Below are positions 34,645 through 38,381 of a DNA stretch of 46,273 nt, in pieces; position 1 is the first letter of the stretch, and each line of letters begins with the position of its first letter. The position numbers and the translations under genes were made by a program. Source of the stretch: Bacteroidales bacterium (GTDB taxonomy: Bacteria; Bacteroidota; Bacteroidia; Bacteroidales; UBA12170); assembly GCA_021158405.1 (NCBI GenBank), contig JAGGUP010000001.1:1-46273 (forward strand), read 5' to 3'. The notes beneath the pieces are model-generated. The model was not told the origin of the DNA and searched no databases. It saw nothing but the letters and a program-made list of their open reading frames with translations.

Positions 34645-35814
34645 ATGTTAGCCATAAAATTAGCTTTCAAAAACTTAATGGGCGCAGGGCTTCGTACCTG
34701 GCTCAATGTCATTGTGTTGTCATTAGCTTTCGTGCTTATAATTTTTTATAATGGTTTGATGGATGGATGGAATAGACAAGCAAGAAACGATACCCAAGAC
34801 TGGGAAATTGGCAATGGACAATTTTGGCATCCCGATTACGATAAGTTTGATCCTTATACAATAGAAGAATCAAATGAAGTGATCTCTGATGAGATTCAAA
34901 CACTGATAGAAGAAGATAAAGTCACACCCCTATTAATCCGCCAAATAACTATTTATCCACAAGGACGTTTAATGAGTGCTAGACTAAAAGGTGTTGATCC
35001 TAATCAAGAAATTATAAAGTTACCTTCAGCAGATATTCGAAATTCACAAAACAAATATGCAGCAATTATTGGCGAAGGAATGGCAAATGCCACAAAACTA
35101 AAAGTTGGCGATCAAGTTCTCATGCGATGGCGCGATAAAAACGGAACTTTCGATGCGCACGAAATTGAAATTGTTTCCATCTTTAATTGTAATGTACCAC
35201 AAGTTGAAAACGGCACAATATATATGGATATTGAAGTCGTACAGGAAATGGCTAATTTGCATAATCAAGCAACGATGTTAGTTACAAGTCGAGATTATGA
35301 AAACACTAAACTCGAAGGTTGGGAGTTCAAAGACTTAAATTTCTTATTGGCTGAATTTGATAAAATTATTGAATCGAAAAAAGGTGGAGGAATGGTGCTG
35401 CAATCTATATTGCTTTTGCTTGCATTATTGGCAGTATTTGACACTCAAGTACTCTCTATTTTTCGTCGTCAGAAAGAAATTGGCACCTATATGGCTTTGG
35501 GCTTAACCCGAACAAGAATAGTAGGCATATTTACCGTAGAAGGTGCTGCACATAGTATTTTGGCCGCTATTGTTGGTGCTATTTACGGAATACCTCTCTT
35601 TATTTATTTAAGTAAAGTTGGTATCTATTATGGGAATATTGCAAAAGCGTCCGGACTAACAATAGCAGAAACTTTATACCCTTATTATAGCGTAGGTTTA
35701 ATTATCACCAGCATAATTATAGTTGTGGTATCTGCTACAATTGTTAGCTATCTACCAGCACGTAAAATTTCTAAAATGAGTCCAACTCAAGCTTTGAAAG
35801 GAAAAATACAATGA
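34645..35814 (+). CDS. FtsX/MacB-type ABC permease (first of two)
   Basis: A 389-residue protein with one N-terminal helix (about 15-37), a large periplasmic domain (about 40-250) and three C-terminal helices (about 250-375). FtsX hallmarks are LRTWLNVIVLSLAFVLIIFYNG near the N terminus and RRQKEIGTYMALGLTRTRI in the cytosolic coupling region, ending SYLPARKISKMSPTQAL (quoted in parts). This is the LolC/LolE topology. Its stop overlaps the next start by four bases (ATGA), so the two permeases are made together and presumably form a heterodimer. Confidence 0.9.
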   Translation: MLAIKLAFKNLMGAGLRTWLNVIVLSLAFVLIIFYNGLMDGWNRQARNDTQDWEIGNGQFWHPDYDKFDPYTIEESNEVISDEIQTLIEEDKVTPLLIRQITIYPQGRLMSARLKGVDPNQEIIKLPSADIRNSQNKYAAIIGEGMANATKLKVGDQVLMRWRDKNGTFDAHEIEIVSIFNCNVPQVENGTIYMDIEVVQEMANLHNQATMLVTSRDYENTKLEGWEFKDLNFLLAEFDKIIESKKGGGMVLQSILLLLALLAVFDTQVLSIFRRQKEIGTYMALGLTRTRIVGIFTVEGAAHSILAAIVGAIYGIPLFIYLSKVGIYYGNIAKASGLTIAETLYPYYSVGLIITSIIIVVVSATIVSYLPARKISKMSPTQALKGKIQ

Positions 35815-37082
35815 TAAAGTTTTTATTAAAAGGAATTTTAAGAGACCGTAGCCGAAGTTTACTTCCAATAATAGTCGTCTCTATAGGTGTTTTTCTAACT
35901 ATCGTGATGAGCGCCTGGATGAAAGGCATTTTTACGGATATGATTGATATGAATGCAAATTTTACCACCGGTCATGTGAAAATAATGACTCGTGCTTATG
36001 CTGAGAACTCCAATCAAATGCCTTTAGATTTAGCTTTATTGGGCATAGATGAACTAAAGCAAAATTTAGAGAAAGATTATCCAGATATGGAATGGGTTTC
36101 TCGAATCAATTTCGGAGGTTTATTGGATGTGCCTGATAAAAATGGAGAAACACGCGCTCAAGGTCCTGCAGCTTGTAAGGCTATCGATTTCTTTCATAAT
36201 CCGAAAGAGATAGAACGGATGAATATTTCAAAATCATTAGTAAAAGGAAGTATTCCAAAAAAACCAGGTGAAGCCATAATTAGCGATGAGTTTGCAGAAA
36301 AATTTGGGGTGAAACTTGGCGAAGATGTGACTCTTTTTGGTTCTACTATGAATGGCAGTATGCTTTTCAAAACATTCACGGTATGTGGAACAATTCGTTT
36401 TGGAATGACTATGCTCGACAGAGGTGCTATTTTGATGGACATTAGCGATGCACAGCTCGCCTTGGATATGGAAAATGGATCAACTGAAATATTAGGATAC
36501 TTCAATGATGGGAATTATGATAAACTTAAAGTAGAAGAAGTAACAAATACATTCAACTCAAAATACAGTAAAGAAAATGATGAGTTTTCGCCTCAAATGC
36601 ATAAGCTAGAAGAACAATCAGGCTTGGGAGATTATTTAGCAATGGCCGATGGCATGATAGGAATGATGATTACATTTTTTGTTATAGCTATGTCGATAGT
36701 ACTTTGGAATACAGGACTTTTGGGCGGATTACGTCGTTATACCGAATATGGAATACGTTTGGCTTTAGGCGAAGAGAAAAAGCATATTTATAAAACAATG
36801 ATTTATGAAGCTATTTTAATCGGAATAATAGGTTCTGTACTGGGAACAATATTAGGATTGGGAATGGCTTATTACCTTCAGGAAGTAGGACTCGATTTTA
36901 GTGAAATGACAAAAAATATCAGTATGATGATGCCTCCAATTTACAGAGCAACTATCTTTCCCGACTTATTTTATATTGGATTTATTCCTGGGCTAATAGC
37001 AATGGTTTCAGGAAATGCTTTAGCAGGTCTTACAATATACAAACGAAAAACGTCCCAACTGTTTAAGGAGCTGGAAGTGTAA
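35811..37082 (+). CDS. FtsX/MacB-type ABC permease (second of two)
   Basis: A 423-residue partner of the preceding permease: N-terminal helix (LLPIIVVSIGVFLTIVMSAW), periplasmic domain, then helices near 280-300, 330-355 and 390-410, with GLRRYTEYGIRLALGEEKK as the coupling segment. Met-rich patches (MADGMIGMMITFF, ISMMMPP) are noticeable in the late helices and the last loop. Its stop is the last of the uninterrupted operon; the four-helix-bundle cassette begins 19 bases later. Confidence 0.9.
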   Translation: MIKFLLKGILRDRSRSLLPIIVVSIGVFLTIVMSAWMKGIFTDMIDMNANFTTGHVKIMTRAYAENSNQMPLDLALLGIDELKQNLEKDYPDMEWVSRINFGGLLDVPDKNGETRAQGPAACKAIDFFHNPKEIERMNISKSLVKGSIPKKPGEAIISDEFAEKFGVKLGEDVTLFGSTMNGSMLFKTFTVCGTIRFGMTMLDRGAILMDISDAQLALDMENGSTEILGYFNDGNYDKLKVEEVTNTFNSKYSKENDEFSPQMHKLEEQSGLGDYLAMADGMIGMMITFFVIAMSIVLWNTGLLGGLRRYTEYGIRLALGEEKKHIYKTMIYEAILIGIIGSVLGTILGLGMAYYLQEVGLDFSEMTKNISMMMPPIYRATIFPDLFYIGFIPGLIAMVSGNALAGLTIYKRKTSQLFKELEV

Positions 37083-37101
37083 AAGAGTGCACTAAAATTA
37101 A

Positions 37102-37122
37102 AAGTTGGAAGTGACTTAAGTT
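37102..37122 (+). repeat. Left inverted repeat of the four-helix-bundle cassette
   Basis: This 21-mer reads AAGTTGGAAGTGACTTAAGTT. Its reverse complement matches 37586-37606 at 18 of 21 positions. The two repeats face each other around the four-helix-bundle gene. Confidence 0.6.
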
Positions 37123-37183
37123 AAAAACGATTATTTGGTTTTGTTTATGCAAAAAGACTTCATTAAATTTAAAACTTATTGAA

Positions 37184-37540
37184 ATGGATAATAAAGAATT
37201 TAGTATACTTCTTGAGAAAAGAACAAAAACATTTGCTGTTGAGATAATTAAATTATCAGCAAAACTCCCAAATACAATCGAAAGTAAAGTTATCCGAAAT
37301 CAAATCACTAAGTCAGGAACAAGTATTGGCGCAAACTATAGAGAAGCAAATAGAGCTAGAAGTAAGGCTGATTTTAAGAATAAAATAAAAATCTCTGTTG
37401 GCGAGGCAAATGAAACAGTTTATTGGCTAGAAATTATTGTTGAAATGAATTGGCTCAAACAAGATGATTTACATTCGATTACTAATGAAGCGAAAGAAAT
37501 TCTAGCGATTTTCACTTCAATTTCAAATAAGCTAAGCTAA
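37184..37540 (+). CDS. Four-helix-bundle protein, 23S rRNA intervening-sequence (S23/IVP) family
   Basis: A 118-residue helical protein with the family signature: VIRNQITKSGTSIGANYREA, then RARSKADFKNKIKISVGEA and ETVYWLEII (quoted in parts). Homologues are encoded in 23S rRNA intervening sequences, as accessory proteins (Avd) of diversity-generating retroelements, and as scattered chromosomal orphans of unknown role; the surface is often basic and can bind nucleic acid. No retroelement reverse transcriptase or rRNA is nearby. The gene is bounded by inverted repeats and lies between operon genes that belong together, so it looks inserted. Confidence 0.9.
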   Translation: MDNKEFSILLEKRTKTFAVEIIKLSAKLPNTIESKVIRNQITKSGTSIGANYREANRARSKADFKNKIKISVGEANETVYWLEIIVEMNWLKQDDLHSITNEAKEILAIFTSISNKLS

Positions 37541-37585
37541 AAAATATGAACTTAATATTGAATATTATTCTACTCATAATCACAC

Positions 37586-37606
37586 AACTTAAGGCACTTG
37601 TAACTT
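37586..37606 (-). repeat. Right inverted repeat of the four-helix-bundle cassette
   Basis: AACTTAAGGCACTTGTAACTT, the imperfect inverted partner of 37102-37122 (18 of 21 matches). It overlaps the short tandem repeat at 37595-37624. Confidence 0.6.
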
Positions 37607-37624
37607 TAGACACTTGTAACTTTA
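37595..37624 (+). repeat. Tandem 14-mer repeat, period 16
   Basis: CACTTGTAACTTTA occurs at 37595-37608 and again, identical, at 37611-37624. The repeats sit at the right edge of the cassette and 23 bases before the LolA-like gene. TAACTTTA resembles a -7 box with its last base changed, so a weak promoter is conceivable. Confidence 0.85.
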
Positions 37625-37646
37625 AAATAAATTAAAAAAAGAAATA

Positions 37647-38381
37647 ATGAAAAATATATTAATCTCCTTGTTTACCTTCCTATTCTTAGGCTCTTTATCT
37701 GCTCAAAACGCAAATAAAATTATAGAAAAAGTAGATGCAAATATGTCATCAAAAAACAGAATAGTAGAATCATCAATGATTATTCACGGAAAACGCAATA
37801 GTCGTACTATTACTTCTCTTTCTTATTCCGTTGGCGATAAAAAATCCTTTACAGAGTATTTATCACCCGCCAGAGAGCGAGGAACAAAAATGCTTAAACT
37901 TGAAGATAAGCTATGGATTTATTCTCCAAGTACTGATAGAATAATACAAATTTCCGGACATATGCTCCGCCAATCTTTAATGGGCTCTGACTTATCTTAC
38001 GAGGATATGATGGACGACCGTAAACTAACAGAAGTTTATACGGCAAAAGTTGTCGGAGAAGAAAATATTGATGGACGAAAGTGTTATATCCTAGAACTTA
38101 AAGCCAAAGTAGTTGATGTCGCTTATTACTCACAAAAAATATGGATAGATCAGGAGTATTTTGTTCCACTTAAAGAAGATTTATTTGCCAAAAGCGGCAA
38201 ACTCCTTAAACAAACTACTTTCTCGAATGTGAAAAAAGTTCAAGGGCGATGGTATCCAACTAAAATGGTTTACAAAGATATGCTCAAGCAAGGAAATGGC
38301 ACGGAATTTATTGTTAACAGCATGAAATTCAATCAGGAGATTCAGGAGTATATTTTTACTAAAGCGGCTTTAAAACAATAA
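37647..38381 (+). CDS. LolA-like outer-membrane lipoprotein-sorting protein
   Basis: A signal peptide (MKNILISLFTFLFLGSLSAQ) precedes a LolA/LppX-type half-barrel domain. Family marks are an N-terminal ANKIIEKVDANM helix, GTKMLKLEDKLWIYSP, the MGSDLSYEDMMD segment, and CYILELKAK. In proven relatives the hydrophobic cavity carries an acyl chain or lipoprotein across the periplasm. As the product of the same operon as LolCDE-like ABC parts and a barrel, it is the expected periplasmic carrier. There is no lipobox, so it is soluble. The gap to the last permease is filled by the four-helix-bundle cassette. Confidence 0.88.
   Translation: MKNILISLFTFLFLGSLSAQNANKIIEKVDANMSSKNRIVESSMIIHGKRNSRTITSLSYSVGDKKSFTEYLSPARERGTKMLKLEDKLWIYSPSTDRIIQISGHMLRQSLMGSDLSYEDMMDDRKLTEVYTAKVVGEENIDGRKCYILELKAKVVDVAYYSQKIWIDQEYFVPLKEDLFAKSGKLLKQTTFSNVKKVQGRWYPTKMVYKDMLKQGNGTEFIVNSMKFNQEIQEYIFTKAALKQ

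Follow-up and report, generated by a model that had tools for sequence, protein, structure and literature searches.

A probable insertion element formed by a single S23 gene and flanking inverted arrays of 7- or 8-nucleotide repeats, with an eroded copy in a Bacteroidales transport operon

Introduction

How does a gene for a small four-helix-bundle protein come to lie, between inverted repeats, in the middle of a transport operon? The question is raised by a 46,273-nucleotide (nt) stretch of DNA from a Bacteroidales bacterium (assembly GCA_021158405.1, contig JAGGUP010000001.1; the whole stretch is referred to here as the window), in which a gene of the S23 family separates the gene of an FtsX-like permease from that of a LolA-like carrier. 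We consider it probable that the unit at about positions 37085 to 37622 is an old, degenerate copy of a widespread insertion element, in which a single S23 gene is bounded on both sides by inverted arrays with a repeat unit of 7 or 8 nt. Within this array-bounded family the window copy is a worn example that, taken alone, is unremarkable. As far as our searches show, the family pattern is undescribed so far in the open literature: no paper joining S23 genes with 7- or 8-nt arrays was found in the open PubMed Central (PMC) texts, with subscription papers and preprints mostly outside that scope.

Results

The gene at positions 37184 to 37540 (forward strand) has an intact frame and encodes a 118-residue four-helix-bundle protein of the S23, or 23S-rRNA-intervening-sequence-protein (IVP), family, matching PF05635 (E = 1.5e-23), TIGR02436 (E = 5e-29) and, among solved structures, 2rld (E = 3.9e-22) and 2gsc (E = 0.0099). 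It is enclosed by inverted arms at 37101-37122 and 37586-37607, each 22 nt long, which lie 463 nt apart and pair at 19 of 22 positions (86%); the inverted 21-mers that an original prediction for this DNA had placed at 37102-37122 and 37586-37606 both lie inside them. That prediction also described a 14-mer tandem repeat on the right. A direct repeat does exist there, with a period of 16 instead of 14; 2.4 copies span 37586-37624 (consensus AACTTTAGACACTTGT), and each period can be read as a pair of 8-nt units. The left arm pairs with the right in two registers (37101-37122 and 37098-37126), and the arms are remnants of arrays rather than a fixed 21-mer. The best complementary segment, between 37098-37126 and the second register of the right array, scores 17, a value reached in 5 of 1000 Markov shuffles and at none of 305 placements of the same geometry elsewhere in the window. 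When the unit is folded as a single strand, both arms are predicted to pair with each other.

As had been claimed, the unit holds no transposase gene, its sole frame of at least 80 residues being the PF05635 gene. No Rfam family reaches its gathering score anywhere in the window; the unit sits between protein genes, outside 23S rRNA. The exact 22-mer of the arm has no second occurrence in the genome, and a genome-wide search allowing up to three mismatches finds the other arm and one further site (C141:53997), against none for the reversed control pattern. The sequence of the 21-mer pair is thus not found around other S23 genes, as the original prediction had proposed to check; the inverted-array architecture does recur, and the sequence check fails because it is this architecture that returns, with a new motif each time.

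The architecture was assessed across 116 S23 loci, 36 from the window's genome and its order (Pfam model) and 80 named loci from many phyla (conserved peptide). The latter are the best 80 of 580 confirmed matches to one conserved peptide, selected without regard to arrays, so that closer relatives of the query are over-represented among them. Two loci (L119 and L126) were left out for short flanks, leaving 114 (36 from the order, 41 from other Bacteroidota and 37 from other phyla). For each, an arm score was obtained by comparing the left 150 bp with the reverse complement of the right 150 bp. The mean score was 17.5 within loci and 8.9 between loci (permutation z = 38.7, n = 114), and 81 of the 114 loci exceeded the between-locus 95th percentile in the inverted orientation, compared with 18 in the direct orientation. 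This threshold was passed by 24/36 loci of the order, 31/41 of other Bacteroidota and 26/37 of other phyla. Within the window's own genome, five of the seven S23 genes have arms above the 95th percentile of a separate comparison. Among control open reading frames (ORFs) of the same loci, only 2 of 66 had a flank score above 13.

The flanks are also periodic. Their self-similarity shows sharp peaks at lags of 7, 14, 21 and 28 and lower ones at 8, 16 and 24, and among lags 2 to 30 nothing besides these multiples comes close. Within the range of 4 to 13, the optimal period was 7 in 72 loci and 8 in 35 (107/114 together); the family-wide calls are 7 for 65 loci, 8 for 33 and undecided for 16. A period-7/8 score of at least 16 was found at 99 of 114 S23 loci, as opposed to 2 of 20 loci of RAYT transposase genes. 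Arrays facing their own reverse complement on the opposite side of the gene can be recognized by eye in Flavobacterium (GTAGCTGA, L083), Brucella (GGGAGTAA, L139) and a Nitrospirae bacterium (GCACAAAG, L068). The motif is private to each locus and differs even between copies within one genome.

By comparison with the protein sequences, the array period appears to go with the S23 lineage. On a tree of the 114 proteins, built on few columns and with many open forks, the 7/8 label changes 17 times, as compared to a mean of 27.6 (minimum 22) in 300 shuffles; without eight same-site rows there are 17 changes versus 22.2, and 0.7% of 300 shuffles are as low. One group of 17 rows (support 85) has period 8 throughout except for L071 (7) and L089 (undecided), and it spans Bacteroidota, Nitrospirae, KSB1, Elusimicrobia and Lambdaproteobacteria.

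S23 genes are present in 45 of 60 relatives, with up to 22 matches in a single genome, and they run in the same direction as both neighbours in 85 of 98 cases (control ORFs: 56/81 downstream, 33/46 upstream). A phage origin of the unit was rejected, as one query found no S23 match in 50,697 phage records. The host operons are varied. One unit (L124:1992-2354) lies between the flavoprotein and iron-sulfur genes of a succinate dehydrogenase/fumarate reductase, and the flanking text of six further loci (L096, L117, L120, L133, L135 and L140) resembles this one; in Riemerella anatipestifer (L352) a unit with AAGGTTCA-type arms, judged by eye, lies between an iron-sulfur assembly accessory gene and sufB. 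Units are also held by cas operons (L333, cas10/cmr3; L334, cas6/cas4), a placement that may explain the mention of "23S rRNA IVP" in a figure legend about CRISPR-associated domains (PMC10910872, in excerpt). Presence in a cas operon need not mean a CRISPR function.

Close pairs of occupied and empty sites come from cyanobacterial plasmids. Trichormus variabilis plasmid C (L330) carries an S23 unit where plasmids of Nostoc linckia and Tolypothrix, 98.1 and 97.9% identical over the aligned part, have a plain gap. The empty site reads ...AAAAAGTAATTAACAAATAAATATG; the occupied site reads ...AAAAAGTAAT, followed by AAAT CAGAATT CAGAAGT CAGAATT CAGGAGT ... S23 ... TGACTCC TGACTCC TGAGTTC TTCTTTG and then TAATTAACAAATAAATATG. 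The junction is that of an exact insertion in which 4-5 bp (TAAT or GTAAT), the upstream stop codon among them, have been duplicated. The closeness of units to stop codons may merely reflect the harm of insertions elsewhere. The corresponding position is occupied in a Nostoc C052 plasmid (L338) by a left arm and an S23 remnant (72% identical to L330 over 40 residues) and in a Brasilonema plasmid (L340) by a gene-less mini-unit that shares the motif and gives no S23 match. In Nostoc sp. ATCC 53789 one operon occurs on three plasmids, with S23 in gap 1 (L331), in gap 2 with another motif (L350) or in neither (L346, a plasmid bearing a separate partial S23 match, H31, elsewhere). Between cas10 and cmr3, a unit is present in Picosynechococcus PCC 7003 and absent from PCC 7002. 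No array is seen at the best empty sites (L336, L337 and gap 1 of L350), which are simply short gaps, so the arms and the gene seemingly arrived together. Among ten plasmid S23 loci the arm score exceeds 13 in six (17-32) and is 8-12 in four; for L331 and L332 it is lowered because the arm overlaps the frame, annotated or extended.

Occupancy also varies at a Flavobacterium site between a PRiA4-like gene and an NA37 nucleoid-associated-protein gene. Of 141 genomes that carry the neighbour gene, the 30 with the best match were compared there, together with two other loci; of these 32, 22 have S23 and 10 do not, one of the latter with a run of N. The S23-free loci include a bare 13-bp gap (L183) and six (L148, L180, L181, L185, L186 and L197) that by eye hold short inverted arrays, with no S23 match. 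The two arms change together at this site: among 26 distinct units, own arms score 21.5, compared with 14.4 when the right arms are permuted (p = 2e-4), part of which may reflect shared ancestry of close species. The S23 orthologs here are under purifying selection (median dN/dS 0.098, 103 pairs, 29 orthologs).

In the window, the unit begins against the stop codon of the FtsX/MacB-like permease gene (35811-37082, forward strand) and precedes the gene of the LolA-like outer-membrane lipoprotein-sorting protein (37647-38381, forward strand), both assigned by ORF and profile match. The 564 bp between this stop (37082) and start (37647) shrink to about 57 bp once the unit of about 507 bp is subtracted, close to the 505 and 60 bases originally predicted. 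Insertion into the operon, as predicted, is favoured by the relatives, in which the gene is far from universal at this place: 12 of 14 orthologous permease/LolA-like gaps have no S23 gene, the two occupied ones being the window's (L009) and L018. Eleven gaps without S23 and without a scored array measure 0-141 bp. The closest relative (L010, permease 89% identical) has no S23 match and carries at the same place an AGAGTGA heptamer array (period-7 score 77). The gap of L014 looks repeat-like by eye and was excluded from the array count, having no score at period 7 or 8. In L018 the S23 frame is broken and the arms differ by eye from the window's; its remnant belongs to the window's S23 subgroup (44% to the window protein, 46% to L064). 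Read from the sequence, TAAAA at 37080-37084, which contains the upstream stop codon, and again at 37623-37627 is suggestive of a target duplication of the window copy, tentatively, as chance is possible in AT-rich DNA. Damaged S23 copies also occur in the window's own genome (G000): one is divided between two matches (C84:402-1043, L005/L008), and another has an in-frame TAA (L001).

Arrays occur away from S23 genes as well. Sixteen genomes of the order, one per family and 69-200 kb each, were chosen as S23-bearing (2-22 matches) or S23-free, partly from contigs known through earlier matches; S23-free regions are those with no tblastn match at 1e-4 to the 116 S23 proteins. The eight S23-bearing genomes have 0-15 period-7/8 arrays away from S23 per 100 kb, and the eight S23-free genomes have none, save one at 1.3. 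Density follows S23 number (Spearman rho 0.85, p = 3e-5, 16 genomes), and the contrast between the two groups is weaker for other periods (Mann-Whitney p = 0.037, versus 0.0025 for 7/8). Motif sharing was examined for 33 gene-less arrays of four genomes against 8-18 S23 flanks per genome. In 25 of the 33 the flanks of the same genome are on average the more similar, a count that none of 1000 label permutations attained, and the strongest matches score 55 versus 18, 47 versus 12 and 34 versus 17 for own versus other genomes. The window motif itself recurs in this form: the array at C141:53997 reads AACTTTAG-TCACTTTT-AACTTTAG and has no S23 match within about 1.5 kb on both sides. A Nostoc plasmid (L349:985-1225) shows, by eye, two heptamer arrays of the AATTACG type that face each other as an inverted, gene-less pair, also with no S23 match.

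One S23 unit lies in rRNA. A 23S rRNA gene (Rfam LSU_rRNA_bacteria, 1521 bits) spans the whole of L332, from an Azospirillum lipoferum plasmid, and the S23 gene of this locus is enclosed by the heptamer arms AGAGGACGGATGACAGAGGACGGAGGACAG and CCGTCCTCTGTCTTCTGTCATCCGTCTTCTGA. The intervening sequence (IVS) of Coxiella has 28-bp terminal inverted repeats that form a stem around an S23 ORF and is excised by RNase III; a mobility role for the IVS ORF was proposed in 1993, as cited in the same source (PMC4990558, in excerpt). Given the heptameric arms of L332 and the inverted ends of the Coxiella IVS, rRNA and operon units look like one kind of element, a link drawn from this single rRNA case.

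Discussion

We regard the window unit as probably an old insertion of an S23 gene together with its arrays. The way such a unit spreads can be pictured as follows. An S23 oligomer would recognize the array, either as DNA or as an RNA stem, and S23 with host enzymes would copy the array into short operon gaps, accompanied by its own S23 gene when acting in cis and alone when acting in trans. Similarity of the two arms could be maintained either through selection for the stem or through copying across it. The more far-reaching proposal is that S23 drives a transposase-free class of mobile elements, each lineage recognizing, spreading and rewriting its own array in cis and in trans, and that this is a main source of heptamer repeats and of rRNA intervening sequences. 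We offer it tentatively, as a possibility somewhat more apt to be wrong than right.

Several observations weigh against the insertion-element reading or its wider form. No movement of an S23 unit has been observed, and to our knowledge S23 has no known catalytic domain. Of seven comparisons of occupied with empty sites (L330, L333, L327, L326, L331, L350 and L325), only L330 gave a clean duplication, while in the remaining six it is either doubtful or absent, partly because the array units resemble the target. Arms below threshold were found at 33 of the 114 loci, including L005 and L007 of the window's own genome. Inverted arms alone are nothing special, since 12 of 20 RAYT loci have inverted flank matches above 13; what is special is the 7/8-nt period, and in the eroded window copy 7 or 8 is not the best period. 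The folded RNA of the window unit is of ordinary stability (z = -0.94). Across phyla the correlation between protein and motif similarity is weak (Mantel r = 0.12, p = 0.006, 81 loci with arm scores of at least 14) and is gone for proteins below 45% identity (r = -0.006), on which ground a general protein-motif specificity of S23 was rejected. For gene-less arrays, the single best-matching flank comes from the same genome in just 14 of 33, and an inverted partner within 1.5 kb scoring above every null draw was found for 12 of 33 (for seven of them by at least 3), so that the majority look solitary. At the window gap, an old shared insertion followed by many losses is possible, given the subgroup of L018; independent insertion in the window and L018 is the simpler account, because the nearer relatives L010-L017 lack the gene.

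Other explanations were weighed against this reading. The arrays could be pre-existing host hairpins, with the S23 gene alone entering the loop as some introns do at terminator hairpins, and the gene-less inverted pairs seen by eye at the six Flavobacterium loci and at L340 and L349, with S23 matches at none of these eight, are in its favour. We think it unlikely, since the best empty sites have no array and since the period, and weakly the motif, track S23 lineage across phyla. It is also unlikely that a RAYT/Y1 transposase or a reverse transcriptase (RT) encoded elsewhere moves the unit in trans with S23 as a passenger, as in the original prediction of a non-autonomous unit: RVT_1 is absent from this genome, and RAYT loci bear other repeats. 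Y1_Tnp does accompany S23, occurring in 41 of 45 S23-bearing and 5 of 15 S23-free relatives (Fisher p = 2.7e-5), but mobile-element-rich genomes may suffice to explain that association. Only 2 of 20 Y1 loci, versus 99 of 114 S23 loci, reach the period-7/8 score of 16, and many have REP-like palindromes (repetitive extragenic palindromic, REP). Four S23-bearing genomes (G001, G011, G055 and G058) have no Y1 match, three of them (G001, G011 and G058) being 97-99% complete. RAYT/Y1 was rejected as the engine on these two grounds, the other repeats and the Y1-free genomes, despite the association in presence. RT was likewise rejected, RVT_1 being missing from 23 of 45 S23-bearing genomes, including G000 and the array-rich G047, with no association (Fisher p = 0.77). 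Many RAYT-like loci in our set (L305-L324) are flanked by REP-like palindromes.

An immobile unit, whose arms form an RNA stem for transcript processing, as with RNase III on rRNA IVS, and whose S23 gene is vertically inherited, would account for the co-varying arms and the low dN/dS of the persisting gene at the Flavobacterium site, for the strong co-directionality of S23 with its neighbours and for the RNase III excision reported for Coxiella (PMC4990558, in excerpt). It sits poorly with the exact empty site and duplication, with one operon occupied differently on three plasmids of one strain, with 12 of 14 S23-free orthologous gaps and with up to 22 matches per genome, and we judge it quite unlikely; a processing role and mobility can coexist. 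That the inverted match is chance in AT-rich DNA, as the 5 of 1000 shuffles reaching the window score might suggest, is very improbable. The 114-locus result refutes it for the family and leaves a small doubt for the window copy.

The insertion-element reading also sets the unit beside several known systems. REPs are dispersed in genomes without a gene, and a RAYT/REP element, like the S23 unit, combines one gene for a small protein with flanking repeats of a kind that is scattered gene-less as well. S23, however, lacks the Y1 transposase domain and its repeats are 7/8-nt tandem arrays instead of palindromes; the window unit falls outside the RAYT/REP class as defined by a Y1 HUH transposase plus REP palindromes. 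Miniature inverted-repeat transposable elements (MITEs) and other non-autonomous transposons are likewise short, with inverted ends and gene-less versions, but the ends of S23 units are variable arrays private to each copy rather than a fixed sequence bound by a known transposase. Avd of diversity-generating retroelements is a structural relative of PF05635 that works with an RT (PMC10053308, in excerpt), whereas RVT_1 has no match in the window's genome (96.3% complete). The 23S rRNA IVS of Leptospira, Coxiella and others share with the window unit an S23 ORF, enclosing terminal inverted repeats and a sporadic distribution. They differ in position, as the window unit and the other loci read, bar L332, lie between protein genes as far as seen, and in that the arms of S23 units are 7/8-nt arrays, a feature absent from the excerpts of PMC4990558.

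Heptameric simple repeats are intergenic tandem units of 7 nt, as around S23 genes, and those of cyanobacteria are known as short tandemly repeated repetitive (STRR) sequences. The right arm of the window unit, with its period of 16, does not have the 7-nt unit that defines such arrays. Reported motifs include GGGAATC in Xanthomonas and GGGGA(C/T)T in Nostoc (PMC4692102) and TAACTGA in Beggiatoaceae (PMC4679880), and the excerpts of PMC4692102 describe heptamer repeats as generally unassociated with mobile elements. The terms "S23" and "four helix" have no occurrence in the main text of either paper. Convergent close pairs of GGGAATC number 70 and 75 in two Xanthomonas genomes (PMC4692102, in excerpt); by analogy, these may be S23-type or gene-less units.

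S23 genes are common yet unexplained, and the heptamer repeats of bacterial genomes have long been regarded as a curiosity (PMC4692102 and PMC4679880, in excerpt). If the element described here is real, the two would have a common cause, of which rRNA intervening sequences become one special case. It would account for the presence of S23 genes in operons as unrelated as cas, sdh, suf and the window's transport operon, where they could be mistaken for functional partners, and it would offer a testable and possibly transposase-free route of DNA movement.
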